A DNA stretch of 64,000 nt from Gammaproteobacteria bacterium (lineage in GTDB: Bacteria; Pseudomonadota; Gammaproteobacteria; HK1): the NCBI GenBank assembly GCA_022826505.1, contig JAJDUQ010000227.1, positions 21,078 to 85,077 of the forward strand, in the 5' to 3' direction. The position numbers and the translations under genes were made by a program. The notes under the pieces were generated by a model. It was not told the origin of the DNA, ran no database searches, and was given only the letters and a program-made list of their open reading frames with translations. Of this stretch, positions 14,212 to 21,139 are shown piece by piece (the first letter of the stretch is position 1; the number at the start of each line of letters is the position of its first letter).

Positions 14212-14775
14212 TCAGTCAGCGCTCCGCGGTCCGAACGCCTGATGGGCTTGAACCACCAGTCCTGGATATCCCTGCATGGACCCGAGTCGCGCTGCCGCGG
14301 ATTCGCGGCCGAGCTTCGCAAGTTCCGCCATCGAGCCTGAGCGAATCGCTCCCGTGGGGCAGATCTCCTCGCATGCGCGCGGCAAATCGAGCGGCCGCTC
14401 GCGCCCGGGCGTCTGACAGAAGTTGCACTTCTCCATCTTCCCGGCCCGGGTCGAGAGCTGAGGGGCGTTGAATGGGCAGGCCCAGGTGCAGAACCCGCAG
14501 CCGATGCACTTGTGGGGATCGACGACAACGATTCCGTCGTCCGCCCTCTTCGTGATCGCGGTCACAGGACACGCGGTCCGGCACGGCGCGTCGCCGCAGT
14601 GCATGCATGCCATTGATACGTTCATTGCCTGAACGTCGGGATACGTCCCACTCTCGATCTTCACCACCTCTCGCCACCGAGGCCCGACATCGACCTCATT
14701 CCAGCTCTTGCACGCAATCTCGCAGGCGTGACACTTCACGCAACGCTTGTGATCGAAATAGAAGCCGTGTTGCAT
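14212..14775 (-). CDS. 4Fe-4S ferredoxin-type electron-transfer subunit (DmsB/PsrB/HycB-like)
   Basis: Multiple Cys clusters: CVKCHACEIACK, CMHCGDAPCRTACP, CIGCGFCTWACPFNAP, CNFCQ...CEEICPTGAI. Confidence 0.88.
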   Translation of the reverse strand: MQHGFYFDHKRCVKCHACEIACKSWNEVDVGPRWREVVKIESGTYPDVQAMNVSMACMHCGDAPCRTACPVTAITKRADDGIVVVDPHKCIGCGFCTWACPFNAPQLSTRAGKMEKCNFCQTPGRERPLDLPRACEEICPTGAIRSGSMAELAKLGRESAAARLGSMQGYPGLVVQAHQAFGPRSAD

Positions 14776-14803
14776 CCTGCGTCTCCTCGGGCCGATACGT
14801 CGT

Positions 14804-16915
14804 TCAGGCGGGATAGACCTTGACCTTGCATTCGTTATAGCAGTTGGCGCCGGTGATGGGGTTCGTGTGAATGTCCATCAGGTTGTTGGAATGCGCACCC
14901 CGCCCCCGCGCCACGGAGCCCATGGCCCAGTGCCCGAATCCGTGTCCATGCCGGATGCTGACGCATCCGGGAACCAACCCCTCCACCACCTTCGCCTTGA
15001 TTCGAATCTTGTCCTTCGGTGATTTGACGATAACGTAGGCGTCGTCTTCCACACCGAATTTCGCGGCATCCATCCGATTGATCTCCACCCAGTTCTCGCC
15101 ACAAATCTCCATGAGGAACGGATTGTTCTGGGTGACGATGTTGCAGTGCATGCTGAGCTTCGAATGGGTCACCTGGAGAGGGAAATCGGCGTCGGGCTTG
15201 ACCGTGCGTTCCGACCACACCGGATAGCCCTCGAATCCCGCGTCCTCGTACGCCTTCGAGTGAATCTCGATTTTTCCGGAAGGGGTCGGAAGCCCTTCGG
15301 GCACTCGGTGGTAACGCATCTCGCCCGCCCAGAATCCCTGCTCCTTGAGCTCGTCGAGCGACATCGGCACGTTCTTCATCGCCACCTCGCCCCAGTCCTC
15401 CCACTTCTCGTACGGGAAGTGCTGACCACACCCCATCTTCTCGGCCAGAGCCTTGACGATTTCGTACGGAGGCTTCGATTCGCCGACCGAATCGACCACC
15501 GGCTGGCACAGGACGACCTCGGGTCCTTTCCACATGCCCTGCCGAATCTCCGCCTGTTCGTAGAAGGACGTCTCGGGCAGCACCACGTCGCATTCGAGCG
15601 CGGTCTCGCTCATGAACAGCTCGCAAGCCACTGCAAGCTCCAGGTGCGAGAACATCTCCTTCACCCGGTCCCGATTCGGATCGCTCATCACCGGATTGCT
15701 CGCTTGCACGAACAGCCCCTTCACCGGATACGGGTTGCCGTCGATGACGGCGTCGGGAAGGCGCGAGTTGGGCAAATCCGGCGCAAGCGGGTAGCCCATC
15801 GCGACGTGAAGCGGGTCCTTCGTCGGCACCGTCTTTGCGTCGTCGGGGATCTCGACCGGCGCGCCGAGCGGTGCCCAGTCCTTGAGCACCAGGTTTCCCG
15901 GCTTGTCGACCTCGCCGCAGATGGCGTCCAGGATGTAGCAGGCGCGACCGGCGTCTGCACCGTTGGTGTAGTAGCCGGAGCCCTTGAAGATCGCCGACAT
16001 CGCCGGCTTCGTGGTCGCGAACTCGCGTGCGATACGCCGGATCCGCTCCGCCGCGACGCCGGTGATCGGTTCGGCCCACTCGGGGGTATAGCCGCGCTCG
16101 CGCAGGTGTTCGCGGAATCCGTCGAATCCTTCGCAGTACCGGGAGACGAAATCCCTGTCGAACAGGTCCTCGTCGATGATTACGCGGCACATCGCGAGGG
16201 CGAGTGCGCCATCGGTGCCGGGCTGGATCGGTATCCACTCGTCGGCTTTCTGCGCGGTCTCGGTAAAATTGGGATCGACGACAACCAGTTTGCACCCGCG
16301 CTGTTTCGCCTCGATGAGTTCCCGGCTCTCCCACAGGCCCTGGTTGGCGCCGAGGTTGTTCATTCCCCACAGGATCACATAACGCGAGTTGATGAAGTCG
16401 TGCATCGGGAAAACGTGCCCGAACACCGTGAGGCAAGCCGAACGCCGGTCCTGCTCGCACCCCGACGTGTGTGCGTACATGTTCGGACTACCATACAAAT
16501 CCCGGAGCAGGGTCCAGTAAAACACGGTGTTCGGATCGTGGTGGCACGTGAACGCCACGGCCTCAGGGCCCCATCTCTCCTTGATCTCCTTCAGCTTGCC
16601 CGCAATGAAATCCAGCGCCTCGTCCCACGATGCCCGGCGGAATCGTCCCGGCTCGCCCTTGGGATCGGTACGCAACATCGGGTATTTCAATCGGTCCGGA
16701 TCTTGCGTCACCCACCAGCTCGCCATCCCCTTGGCGCACCGTGATCCAATGTTGTTGGGCGCACGGGAGTTCCCCTTGTGGTAGACGATTCTGCCGTCGC
16801 GCACGTACACCTCGGTCGGACACTGCCACGGGCAGGTGTAGCAGAAACTCTTGACGACCTGCGCCTGCTTGATGCGCGCAAGCTCGCTGGTAAGGTCGGT
16901 TTCGGCGGTGGCCAT
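14804..16915 (-). CDS. Molybdopterin-dependent oxidoreductase catalytic subunit (DMSO reductase superfamily)
   Basis: N-terminal CYTCPWQC...RCAKG 4Fe-4S motif, bis-PGD binding regions, C-terminal molybdopterin-dinucleotide domain; no Tat signal. Confidence 0.88.
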   Translation of the reverse strand: MATAETDLTSELARIKQAQVVKSFCYTCPWQCPTEVYVRDGRIVYHKGNSRAPNNIGSRCAKGMASWWVTQDPDRLKYPMLRTDPKGEPGRFRRASWDEALDFIAGKLKEIKERWGPEAVAFTCHHDPNTVFYWTLLRDLYGSPNMYAHTSGCEQDRRSACLTVFGHVFPMHDFINSRYVILWGMNNLGANQGLWESRELIEAKQRGCKLVVVDPNFTETAQKADEWIPIQPGTDGALALAMCRVIIDEDLFDRDFVSRYCEGFDGFREHLRERGYTPEWAEPITGVAAERIRRIAREFATTKPAMSAIFKGSGYYTNGADAGRACYILDAICGEVDKPGNLVLKDWAPLGAPVEIPDDAKTVPTKDPLHVAMGYPLAPDLPNSRLPDAVIDGNPYPVKGLFVQASNPVMSDPNRDRVKEMFSHLELAVACELFMSETALECDVVLPETSFYEQAEIRQGMWKGPEVVLCQPVVDSVGESKPPYEIVKALAEKMGCGQHFPYEKWEDWGEVAMKNVPMSLDELKEQGFWAGEMRYHRVPEGLPTPSGKIEIHSKAYEDAGFEGYPVWSERTVKPDADFPLQVTHSKLSMHCNIVTQNNPFLMEICGENWVEINRMDAAKFGVEDDAYVIVKSPKDKIRIKAKVVEGLVPGCVSIRHGHGFGHWAMGSVARGRGAHSNNLMDIHTNPITGANCYNECKVKVYPA

Positions 16916-17404
16916 CAGATTGTCTCCGGCAATCGCACTGCCACTCGGAACCGGAAATCGTTCGAGTGACTGGGACTGGTTGGAACGTACTTGGAGCAGA
17001 AGCGCAAAGGGGACGCGGCTTCGCGTTCCGTTGTTCCCTCGGCTCCCTGCATGAAGTCTGGCGTTCGGGTATGCGTCGTGTCAATCGCAGGCTTTCGACG
17101 ACATGGATGTGAGCTCGAACGGGTGCCGGAGCATCCGCGGCAAATCAGCGCCGCACGCTCGAAGCCACGCCGCGGCCCCCGCTGGACTCAATGCCCGGCA
17201 ATCGTCGCGGGCCTGTTGCAAGTGAATTCCACCATGTGCCGATTCGTCGAACTCGACACCGGCACGCTGGTTCGTGCCGCGGTTGCGCCGCGGCGTCGCA
17301 CCACCCTCGGGAAATGCACCTCACTCATGGCATCGCCATGGGTGCAGGGGGGAGCCCGGAGCGCCGAAGGCGGGCAGGTTCAGCACGACCGAGTCTTCGG
17401 GCGC

Positions 17405-20062
17405 TCAAAAACGGTAGCGCATTTGCGTAAAGTGTTGCCGGAACGAGATCACTTCGTCGCGCCAGACGCCCGAGGCGGATGATCCATCATCCCGGAGGAT
17501 TCGCGCCAGAAGCCCCGCGAGTTCCTGGAAGTCCGGCTCGTTCATCCCGAATCGCGTCATTTCCTGAGTTCCGAGGCGAATCCCGGAAGCGGCGGCGAAG
17601 CTCGAATCGTCGTAGAACGCCTGTGGATTGGTGATGATGTTGTTCCGCTCCAAACCCGAAGCCATCTCACCGCCTGTCCCTCTCGCGCCGCGCACCAGTA
17701 CCTGATGGGTATCGGTATAGCCGGCAACGGGATCGCCCTCGATCGCCAGTCCTTGCGCGGCAAGTGCCCGGGCGAACGCCCTGGCATTGCGGATCACCTG
17801 CGGCTGGTACTCGTCGCGGTAACGGATCATCTCGTAGGTCGCCCCCAGGAGCCCGAGCAGGGTCCCGAGATGATGGTTGCTCACATGTCCCGGGAACGCG
17901 CGCGATCGCACGAACTGCCAGAACTCCTCGAACGTGTGCCCATGGGTGATGTTGCTGAGGATTACGCCCCGTTGTGGACCGAAGAATGTCTTGTGAGTCG
18001 ATCCGGTGACCACGTCCGCGCCATCGGCCAGCGGATCCTGGAAGTGAGCGCCGAGCAAGCCGAGCACGTGCGCGCCGTCGTACATCACGAGAGGTCGCTC
18101 CGGGTTGTCGGCGCCGAACTCCGCGTGCACGAACTCGACGATGTCCCTGACCGGCTCGACGTGAATGATCACGCTGCGTCCGAACACGATGAGATCCGGC
18201 CGTCCTTCCACGATGAGCGACTTGGTCGCCTCGACGTCGATCGCGTGGGGAAGGTCTCGCCGGGGCACGAAGTGGTCCACGGCGGGCCGCTCGGTCCTCG
18301 GGTCATGGGAGACGTAGTTCTTGAGTGCACCACCGGTTTGAGCGCTCAGATGGCCCCCTTTGTTGAGATCGTGCACGAGCACCCGCCGAAGCGGCCGCGG
18401 CGTACGTCGCCCACGATGGCGGTTGCGAAACTGCTTCAGCGCGTCATAGACGGTGTCGTTGGCCATCTGCCCGCTGATGACTCTCACCTCCGCATCCCGA
18501 CAACCGAAGAAGGTTCCCAACGCTTCGATCAGCGCCTCCTCCTTCTCCATGCTGAAAGCGGTGCCCTTGTAGTACCGCACGTCCTCGGAGTTCACGCCGA
18601 GGGCTCGTAGCTGGTTGTGCTCGTTGTATCGTCCTGCCGGATCGGAAGTGCAGAGGCGTTCAACGAACTCGGAGACGCAATTCTCGGACGGGATGAGATT
18701 GATGCACTCGGTGCGCCGCCACCGGTGGTTGCTCTCGGCCTGCTCGACGAGACGATCAGCGAACAATTCCGCCTTCGAGGCAGGTGCCGAGATTCGCTCC
18801 GTGCGACGCTCGAAGCCTCCGAAGGGCCGCACGAACGGGGGCACCGACCACGCGTTGCGTTCCACGACCTGAGCGATCGTGGAATTGCCTCGGGCATCGA
18901 GCACTTCGATGTGAAGCGGTTCGTCGCTACGCGGCAGAATGTCCGATCGCAGCAACGCGAGCCCGATCGGTCGCATCGCGTGGTCACTGCCGGGGACGGC
19001 CGCGAGGCCCTCCCCTTCGAACACCGCATACGGTACGGTGGTGCCCGATGTGATCCACCCCGCGTCCTCGTCCCGGTACTTCACCGTGTAGCCTTGGCGC
19101 ATCGGCCGCCGGCCTTCAAATGCCGCGACCGGCTGCACAAGGTGCGTCAGATGTCGTGCGGATGGGGGAGTCGCCAGCTCGCCTCGCCGGATCGCCTCGT
19201 ATTCGGCGCGTTGCGCTCGCAACGCTCGGCAGCCCACGAATTCGCTCTCCGTACCGGTTCGAACGGCGAAGCGCGCCAGCGCGTTTGCAAACAGGGGAAT
19301 GTCACGGCCCTCTGGTCCGGGTCCGAGTTCATGCCCGTACAACGGCAACCCTGCTTCGAGACGCAACGAGTCCCGTGCCCCCAGACCTACCGGAGTCGCA
19401 CCGGCCTCTACGAGCCGCTCCCACAACCTGAGCGCGATGCCGTTTTCCGGGAATAGTTCGAAGCAGACCGACTCTCCGGTGTAGCCGGTTCTTGCAACGA
19501 TGACGTCCCGACCTTCGAAGCCGACCACCGAGATTCGATTACGCTTGTTCTCGGGCAGTCCGCGGGCGTCGACGAATCGCGTCAACACGTCGCTCGCGGC
19601 CGGGCCCTGAAGCGAAATCATGGACAGCTCGGCGCTCTGATCCGTCAGGCTCATACCGCTGTCGGGAAGGTAGCGGCCGAGCCACTCCCAATCCGCGGCA
19701 CGGTTACCCGCATTGACGACGAGCAGGAAGTCTTCGGTGGCGAGTCGGTAGAGATAGGCATCGTCGACGACTCCACCAGACTCATTGGCGATAAACGTGT
19801 ACTGCGCCTGCCAGGGTGCGAGTCCGGAGGCATTGTTGGTGAGCGTCGCCAGCAGGAACGCTTCGGCTCCCGGCCCCGTCACCCGGAAGCGTCCCATGTG
19901 GCTCACGTCGAACAGGCCAGCGCCTCGGCGGGTGGCCAGGTGTTCGGCAATGATGCCGGTCCGATACTGGACGGGCATGCTCCAACCGGCGAAGTCGACC
20001 ATCTTTCCGCCGTGGCCGGCATGCCAGTCATTGAGCACGGTTCTGCGCAGCGGTTCGCTCAT
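17405..20062 (-). CDS. Fusion protein: GcvT-like aminomethyltransferase (N-terminal) plus serine hydroxymethyltransferase-like PLP enzyme (C-terminal)
   Basis: N-term: GLFDVSHMGRFRVTGPGAEAFL, NESGGVVDDAYLYRL, ARTGYTGE; C-term: INLIPSENCVS, GRYNEH, DVVTGSTHKTFFGPQRGVILSN; one continuous 885-aa frame. Confidence 0.88.
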   Translation of the reverse strand: MSEPLRRTVLNDWHAGHGGKMVDFAGWSMPVQYRTGIIAEHLATRRGAGLFDVSHMGRFRVTGPGAEAFLLATLTNNASGLAPWQAQYTFIANESGGVVDDAYLYRLATEDFLLVVNAGNRAADWEWLGRYLPDSGMSLTDQSAELSMISLQGPAASDVLTRFVDARGLPENKRNRISVVGFEGRDVIVARTGYTGESVCFELFPENGIALRLWERLVEAGATPVGLGARDSLRLEAGLPLYGHELGPGPEGRDIPLFANALARFAVRTGTESEFVGCRALRAQRAEYEAIRRGELATPPSARHLTHLVQPVAAFEGRRPMRQGYTVKYRDEDAGWITSGTTVPYAVFEGEGLAAVPGSDHAMRPIGLALLRSDILPRSDEPLHIEVLDARGNSTIAQVVERNAWSVPPFVRPFGGFERRTERISAPASKAELFADRLVEQAESNHRWRRTECINLIPSENCVSEFVERLCTSDPAGRYNEHNQLRALGVNSEDVRYYKGTAFSMEKEEALIEALGTFFGCRDAEVRVISGQMANDTVYDALKQFRNRHRGRRTPRPLRRVLVHDLNKGGHLSAQTGGALKNYVSHDPRTERPAVDHFVPRRDLPHAIDVEATKSLIVEGRPDLIVFGRSVIIHVEPVRDIVEFVHAEFGADNPERPLVMYDGAHVLGLLGAHFQDPLADGADVVTGSTHKTFFGPQRGVILSNITHGHTFEEFWQFVRSRAFPGHVSNHHLGTLLGLLGATYEMIRYRDEYQPQVIRNARAFARALAAQGLAIEGDPVAGYTDTHQVLVRGARGTGGEMASGLERNNIITNPQAFYDDSSFAAASGIRLGTQEMTRFGMNEPDFQELAGLLARILRDDGSSASGVWRDEVISFRQHFTQMRYRF

Positions 20063-20158
20063 GAGACATCCCTTTGGTCTGGCCTGGCGTCCACGAACGG
20101 GGTTGACCGGTTCATCGAGAAATTCAGCCGGTTCAGCCGTGTGGCGCGGATTCGTACG

Positions 20159-21139
20159 TCAGCGAGGCGTCGATCCCACCGATCGGCAACCTCGACTTCG
20201 AGCACTTTCCCGGGCGATGCCGAATGCCAGTCGCTCGAGCACGAGCTGCTCGTTGGCGTTGGTGCGTCCAAGCACTCCGCTCCGGACCTCCAGACACCGG
20301 TCGAGCATCGGCAGCAGGCACGAGACCTGACGAGGTCCACGAACTCCCGGTACCGGATTGGTACTCACGTTGACACTCTTGCGCAGACGGTCGGCGAGAA
20401 TTTCGGTGAGCCACCAAGCGACCGTCGCGCGCCCGAATTCCTTCCACCGCGCCGCGACTGCCGTCGGGTCGCCACCTCCGAGAAGCTCGTCAAGATCGCG
20501 ATCAAGCCGTGAGCGTACCTCAATCAAACCGCTGCTCCACAATTCGACGGCCCGGACCGGCGCACCATGTGCGAGGGCAAGTGCAGCGCCCGGCTCCGGC
20601 ACCTTGCCGTGCAGCCATTCGACGGCGAGACCAGGGTCCGCGAGAGGAAAGTCGATCATCTGGCAGCGACTGCGGACCGTCGCCAGCAATTGTGCGGGAT
20701 TCGACGACACGAGAACGAACACCGTCGCCCCGGGAGGCTCTTCCAGCGTCTTGAGGATAGTGTTGGCCGCATGTCGATTCATCAGATCCGCAGGGTTGAC
20801 GATGACCACCTTGTAACGGCCGAACCGAGCGGTCAGACCCACCGAATGGACGAGATCACGGATCTGCTCGACGACGATTTCGCGGCGATCCGGCTCGAGC
20901 GTCACCTCAATCCAGTCAGGATGGCTGCCGGCGGCACAAAGTCGACAGGACTCGCACGTTTCGCATGGGGGCGCGTTCGATCCGCACAACAATTCCGCGG
21001 CAAGACGGGACGCGAACATCGCCTTGCCGTTGCCGCGCGCCCCACGCAGCAGGATTGCGTGAGGCATCCGTCCGGAACGAATGCTTCGCTCGATCCGGAG
21101 CCATTGCGGGCCGTGCCAGGGCAGACGTTCCGGAATCAC
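20159..21139 (-). CDS. holB: DNA polymerase III delta' subunit
   Basis: HAILLRGARGNGKAMFASRLAAELLCG, Zn-finger CETCESCRLC, NRHAANTILKTLEEPPG; adjacent to tmk. Confidence 0.9.
   Translation of the reverse strand: MIPERLPWHGPQWLRIERSIRSGRMPHAILLRGARGNGKAMFASRLAAELLCGSNAPPCETCESCRLCAAGSHPDWIEVTLEPDRREIVVEQIRDLVHSVGLTARFGRYKVVIVNPADLMNRHAANTILKTLEEPPGATVFVLVSSNPAQLLATVRSRCQMIDFPLADPGLAVEWLHGKVPEPGAALALAHGAPVRAVELWSSGLIEVRSRLDRDLDELLGGGDPTAVAARWKEFGRATVAWWLTEILADRLRKSVNVSTNPVPGVRGPRQVSCLLPMLDRCLEVRSGVLGRTNANEQLVLERLAFGIARESARSRGCRSVGSTPR

Follow-up and report, generated by a model that had tools for sequence, protein, structure and literature searches.

A fused GcvT-SHMT gene with an archaeal-like SHMT half in a gammaproteobacterium and its relatives

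The T-protein of the glycine cleavage system (GcvT) and serine hydroxymethyltransferase (SHMT; GlyA in E. coli) are well-known enzymes whose functional link is textbook knowledge, and a long-standing question is whether folate enzymes hand 5,10-methylene-tetrahydrofolate (methylene-THF) directly to one another. Separate glyA and gcvT genes are neighbors in many bacteria (including Arthrobacter, Rhodococcus, Priestia and Azoarcus plasmids); this arrangement places the same pair of functions together as the gene described here, but it does so with separate polypeptides and with a canonical GlyA. Here we analyze a 64,000-nucleotide stretch of a gammaproteobacterial contig (hereafter, the window), in which a GcvT-type half and an SHMT-like half are joined in one gene. 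A keyword search of titles and abstracts in the open literature found no paper describing a GcvT-SHMT fusion, and the fused architecture with an archaeal-type SHMT, as well as its spread, is apparently undescribed in the literature searched at that level.

The fused gene and its two halves

The gene is a single open frame of 885 codons, which begins with an ATG at position 20062 and ends with a stop codon at 17405-17407 (Table 1). Pfam domains in the 885-aa product are limited to GCV_T at residues 10-248 (E = 4e-78) and SHMT at residues 438-850 (E = 2e-32), and the motifs GGVVDDAYLYRL, TGYTGE and STHKTFFGPQRG are seen in the protein. In the AlphaFold model (mean pLDDT 85.7), residues 405-423 of the linker are disordered. 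The gene lies 96 bases downstream of a same-strand 326-aa frame (20159-21139), which we take, from its sequence and position, to be holB-like. Promoter and terminator patterns were sought at 16800-20400 and none were found; likewise, no riboswitch or other RNA was found near the gene, and the RNAs of the window consist of three tRNAs only. The fusion is followed on its strand (14212-16915) by genes for a PhsA/Fdh-like molybdopterin oxidoreductase of 703 aa, which reaches none of the model cut-offs, and a DmsB-like 4Fe-4S subunit.

Table 1. Position of the fused gene and of its parts in the window
Feature	Position	Strand	Basis
GcvT-SHMT fusion gene, 885 aa	17405..20062	-	open frame; Pfam GCV_T and SHMT; orthologues in 8 related genomes
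GcvT (T-protein) half, residues 1-404	18851..20062	-	GCV_T, TIGR00528, B. subtilis 1yx2
Inter-domain linker, residues 405-428	18779..18850	-	pLDDT <50 at 405-423; length and sequence vary among relatives
SHMT half, residues 429-885, archaeal-like	17408..18778	-	PF00464 at 438-850; M. jannaschii SHMT 4bhd/4uqv
Asp100, equivalent of E. coli GcvT Asp97	19763..19765	-	alignment; invariant in 13 family sequences (A1)
Glu481, equivalent of E. coli GlyA Glu57	18620..18622	-	alignment; invariant in alignment A3
Lys691, PLP lysine (E. coli Lys229)	17990..17992	-	alignment with E. coli GlyA; invariant in alignment A3
AAAGGGA, likely ribosome-binding site	20069..20075	-	read directly, 6 nt before the fusion ATG

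The N-terminal half shares with described T-proteins (TIGR00528/PF01571) the full-length fold, the catalytic Asp and the folate-site residues; it passes the TIGR00528 cut-off (237.9 bits as compared to 235.85) and scores just under that of NF001567 (298.8 of 300 bits). The fusion differs from these proteins in its C-terminal SHMT domain of 450 aa, in its usual location outside a gcvH/gcvP operon and in the placement of its T half in a distinct clade. The best solved relative of the T half is the B. subtilis T-protein (1yx2), and Foldseek comparisons of the fusion model with the B. subtilis and T. maritima T-proteins gave whole-length matches (target-normalized TM-scores 0.87-0.88). Although Pfam GCV_T_C remains under its cut-off in the fusion, these whole-length matches suggest that the C-terminal barrel of T-proteins is likely present. 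The folate-site motifs T192-E197 (TGYTGE) and G226-A237 (GLGARDxLRLEA) align with E. coli GcvT and are invariant or nearly so, and the checked Tyr, Glu and Arg positions of the E. coli GcvT folate pocket are kept in the fusion, as is Asp97 (D100). Identity as a sarcosine/dimethylglycine dehydrogenase or as a TMAO demethylase is disfavored by the domain content of GCV_T and SHMT only (FAD and DUF1989 domains are absent according to Pfam) and by scores far under the cut-offs of the corresponding models (TMAO demethylase, 132.5 of 1100 bits; sarcosine oxidase alpha, 112.8 of 1164 bits). In a tree, the T half groups with true GcvT, away from a DMGDH-type sequence.

The C-terminal half passes the Pfam SHMT gathering score (112.7 bits as compared to 27) but fails the cut-off of NCBIfam NF000586 (242.6 of 335 bits), and we thus file it as SHMT-like at the Pfam level rather than as canonical GlyA. 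The nearest solved sequence is the SHMT of M. jannaschii (4bhd/4uqv; E = 9e-50), which also matches in fold (target-normalized TM-score 0.87) and shares the motifs STHKTFFGPQ and FPGxVSNHHL, with SNHH replacing the GGxGG loop in both proteins. Unlike the fusion half, the archaeal enzyme is stand-alone and lacks approx. 9 extra residues before the Tyr65 equivalent as well as other insertions; it reportedly functions as other SHMTs do, except that it uses tetrahydromethanopterin (PMC3697235). Identity to E. coli GlyA is approx. 27% (measured for the copy of an alphaproteobacterium, G060), but the catalytic PLP and substrate residues of canonical GlyA are found at the tested positions: S35, Y55, E57, Y65, H126, S175, D200, H203, H228, K229 and R363 of E. 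coli GlyA are conserved throughout the aligned fusions and unfused relatives, and K691, D662, H665, R829, E481 and Y498 of the fusion match the PLP Lys, the Asp, the His, the carboxylate Arg and the catalytic Glu and Tyr, respectively. The main exception is Asn347, which is replaced by Gln in all aligned members. Together with the NF000586 score and the insertion between the Glu57 and Tyr65 equivalents, this replacement agrees with the initial annotation, which had described the SHMT half as divergent. As the GlyA residues are kept and the half resembles M. jannaschii SHMT, it looks archaeal-like and, judged by its residues, catalytically complete.

An alternative reading of the fusion could be that the T half serves glycine cleavage while the SHMT half has shifted to another aldol-type reaction, which would use a formaldehyde-level carbon or proceed folate-free (e.g., as a beta-hydroxy amino acid aldolase, a transaldolase or an alpha-methylserine enzyme). 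Such a shift would fit the score well under the NCBIfam SHMT cut-off, the fixed insertion near the folate/substrate loop and the Gln at Asn347 in all aligned members, and the presence of canonical glyA in most carriers. However, Glu57, Tyr65 and the PLP residues are retained, the score against the fluorothreonine/L-threonine transaldolase model (TIGR04506) is 127.9 bits where 650 are needed, the closest solved relative is an experimentally characterized, genuine SHMT (PMC3697235), and G060 has no SHMT-family protein other than the fusion; we thus regard a shifted SHMT half as unlikely.

Conservation, spread and co-inheritance of the halves

As the window's genome is a draft (346 contigs, 94.5% complete, 7.4% contaminated), the fusion could be an assembly or frameshift artifact that joins two neighbor genes, and the initial annotation had itself named a missed stop or a frameshift between the halves as the finding that would overturn it. 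Uninterrupted orthologues are, however, carried by every one of the five genus genomes (71-100% identity, with the window's own genome included), of which two consist of one 5.7-Mb contig each, and by four further members of the family (62-64% identity). Across the eight genomes other than the window's own, identity is 62-82%. Comparisons of the window with its genus mates gave dN/dS values of approx. 0.11 in both halves and higher values in the linker; both halves are under purifying selection. Orthologues in independent assemblies and the dN/dS values rule out a missed stop or frameshift and, with 37 uninterrupted fusions in many assemblies and one annotated isolate replicon (see below), leave an artifact with practically no probability. 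The two-enzyme fusion in one frame, as initially described, is thus borne out by the frame itself, the Pfam domains, the orthologues and dN/dS, and lies on the minus strand.

The search for further GcvT+SHMT fusions that the initial annotation had called for was fruitful. A scan for conserved motifs of the SHMT half in 84,980 species (one genome per species), which gives a lower bound, found at least 42 loci, i.e., 37 uninterrupted fusions and 5 unfused SHMTs. The motifs containing the catalytic Asp and the PLP lysine are 586-603 residues apart in the 37 fusions. According to record titles, the loci belong to Gamma-, Alpha- and Betaproteobacteria, Ca. Muproteobacteria and Acidimicrobiia/Actinomycetes, and nearly all are metagenome-assembled. 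No conserved operon or neighborhood around the fusion was found in the 42 loci. Among 399 genomes sampled evenly across the phylum, the fusion was seen in a single one, that of the window, and is thus rare and patchy. Unfused relatives with 48-49% identity occur in Dehalococcoidia; in two drafts of this class (G085 and G086; loci L174 and L175), the unfused archaeal-like SHMT is the only SHMT-family protein and GcvP was not found. A search for carriage by phages found only ordinary SHMT at approx. 30% identity.

A further fusion, of 881 aa and 46% identical overall, is carried by Vescimonas fastidiosa, a cultured gut bacterium of the Clostridia (L218; NZ_AP023416.1, 358967-378283), where it is directly followed by gcvH-gcvPA-gcvPB-lpdA and the gene for 5-formyl-THF cyclo-ligase. 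The T half thus stands where gcvT would be expected in an otherwise complete operon for glycine cleavage. As this protein is annotated just as "glycine cleavage system aminomethyltransferase GcvT", its SHMT half is hidden, and metabolic models for serine and glycine may record SHMT as absent where such annotations conceal it.

In trees built with a quick method, for which deep placements are uncertain, canonical GcvT falls outside a single clade (SH-aLRT 99) that comprises the T halves and in which the Vescimonas fusion and an unfused T-protein of another family (G044) branch at the base. The phylogenies of the two halves, a comparison also proposed initially, agree with each other; their path distances correlate (r = 0.90, or 0.81 when Vescimonas is left out; 0 of 2000 permutations), indicating that the two halves travel together. 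Unfused T-proteins of a related genus (g2) nest among the fusions (support 87-88), and we conclude from this placement that the g2 lineage lost the SHMT half and kept the T half. Unfused alphaproteobacterial SHMTs also nest among the fusions (support 89-95), and their T half appears to have been lost or moved; two of them adjoin gcvP genes, i.e., gcvPB (L156) or an NAD-kinase-like gene with gcvPA-gcvPB (L167).

Glycine cleavage and SHMT genes of the carriers

The initial annotation had noted that no gcvH or gcvP lies nearby, which holds for the window but not for the genome, where both genes are located together on contig C126; gcvH and gcvP are also present in all five genus genomes. No other protein over the TIGR00528 cut-off was found in these genomes, and the best T-protein candidate in each is the fusion (slightly under the cut-off in G002 and G003). 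In g2, the T-half orthologue (55-59% identity) is the only T-protein over the cut-off and occurs along with gcvH-gcvP. G002, G003 and G004 have a canonical glyA, which was not found in the drafts of the window's own genome (G000) and of G001; as the glyA neighborhood of the relatives is missing or rearranged in these two drafts, loss of glyA is unproven. Accordingly, the search for stand-alone genes that had been suggested for the window's genome yielded gcvH and gcvP, and neither another gcvT over the cut-off nor canonical glyA.

In G060, a chromosome-level genome (3.52-Mb contig), the fusion is the only PF00464 protein, and gcvH and gcvP are adjacent with no gcvT beside them; a distant separate gcvT may exist. 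Among fusion genomes outside the family, 26 of 27 also hold a better-matching SHMT, and several carriers (G009, G014, G062 and G067) have their own gcvT-gcvH-gcvP, indicating that the fusion is often a second copy. No GcvP over the cut-off was found in carriers G006, G011, G056, G074 and G076, all of which are drafts.

Carriers without GcvP would be expected if the T half were fed not by GcvH but by an N-methyl or other donor (sarcosine, dimethylglycine, a TMAO route), with methylene-THF then passing to the SHMT half; an N-methyl donor had also been raised in the initial annotation. Richness of the window's genome in GcvT-domain proteins (21 matches, mostly in open frames >800 aa) points in the same direction; these long frames are probably of the dimethylglycine/sarcosine-dehydrogenase type, and the number of matches suggests heavy use of N-methylated compounds. 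On the other hand, the fusion has no FAD or DUF1989 domain and remains far under the cut-offs of the demethylase models, its T half passes the GcvT model and groups with true GcvT, and the Vescimonas copy is part of a gcv operon. The proposal of an N-methyl donor is hence not supported, and we consider this reading quite improbable; the presence of gcvH-gcvP in the window's genome makes aminomethyl-GcvH the likelier donor.

Proposed reaction of the fusion

We consider it probable that the fusion is a natural bifunctional glycine-serine enzyme, in which a T-protein of the glycine cleavage system, a short flexible linker and an archaeal-type SHMT would together allow serine to be formed from two glycines. 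Through GcvP and GcvH, whose genes lie elsewhere in the genome, glycine would be decarboxylated and its aminomethyl group offered on GcvH; the T half would move the aminomethyl carbon to tetrahydrofolate, yielding methylene-THF and ammonia; and the SHMT half, which presumably forms a dimer as other SHMTs do, would join this carbon to another glycine molecule, yielding serine. The net reaction would be 2 glycine -> serine + CO2 + NH3 + NADH, or the reverse. Both activities, the tetrahydrofolate cofactor, the net direction and a possible channelling of methylene-THF are what we infer, whereas the fused architecture, its conservation, the joint inheritance of its halves, the retained catalytic residues and the association with glycine cleavage genes in relatives are what we observe. 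A possible hand-over of methylene-THF made by the T half to its SHMT partner is supported by the intact catalytic residues, the co-inheritance of the halves and the homologous fusion in a complete gcv operon. Evidence against one universal role comes from the five carriers without detectable GcvP, the frequent canonical glyA and the lack of a conserved fusion neighborhood. The low NCBIfam score of the SHMT half, its insertion and Gln replacement, and the loss of this half in related genomes also count against the bifunctional reading, whereas the split-off SHMTs beside gcvP genes, the gcvH-gcvP pairs that lack another gcvT in the genus, and the common adjacency of separate glyA and gcvT speak for it. 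A natural fusion of a methylene-THF maker and a methylene-THF user would let direct transfer be tested in one protein, and represents a candidate part for synthetic formate-to-serine pathways.

We tentatively raise the possibility, clearly less likely than the bifunctional enzyme as such, that methylene-THF is passed from the T site to the SHMT site without release, in a dedicated two-glycine-to-serine module, and that, where a lineage has an NAD-kinase-like-gcvPA-gcvPB locus that lacks GcvH, the fusion or the split SHMT is part of a second glycine-cleavage-type pathway apart from the housekeeping one. Loci in which gcvPA-gcvPB occur with an NAD-kinase/AcoX-like gene and with no adjoining gcvT or gcvH (L182, L188, L189, L191 and L192-L195; also L167, 7390-11437) were observed in eight genomes with a fusion or a split SHMT, often alongside a canonical operon for glycine cleavage, and may possibly represent such a second pathway.
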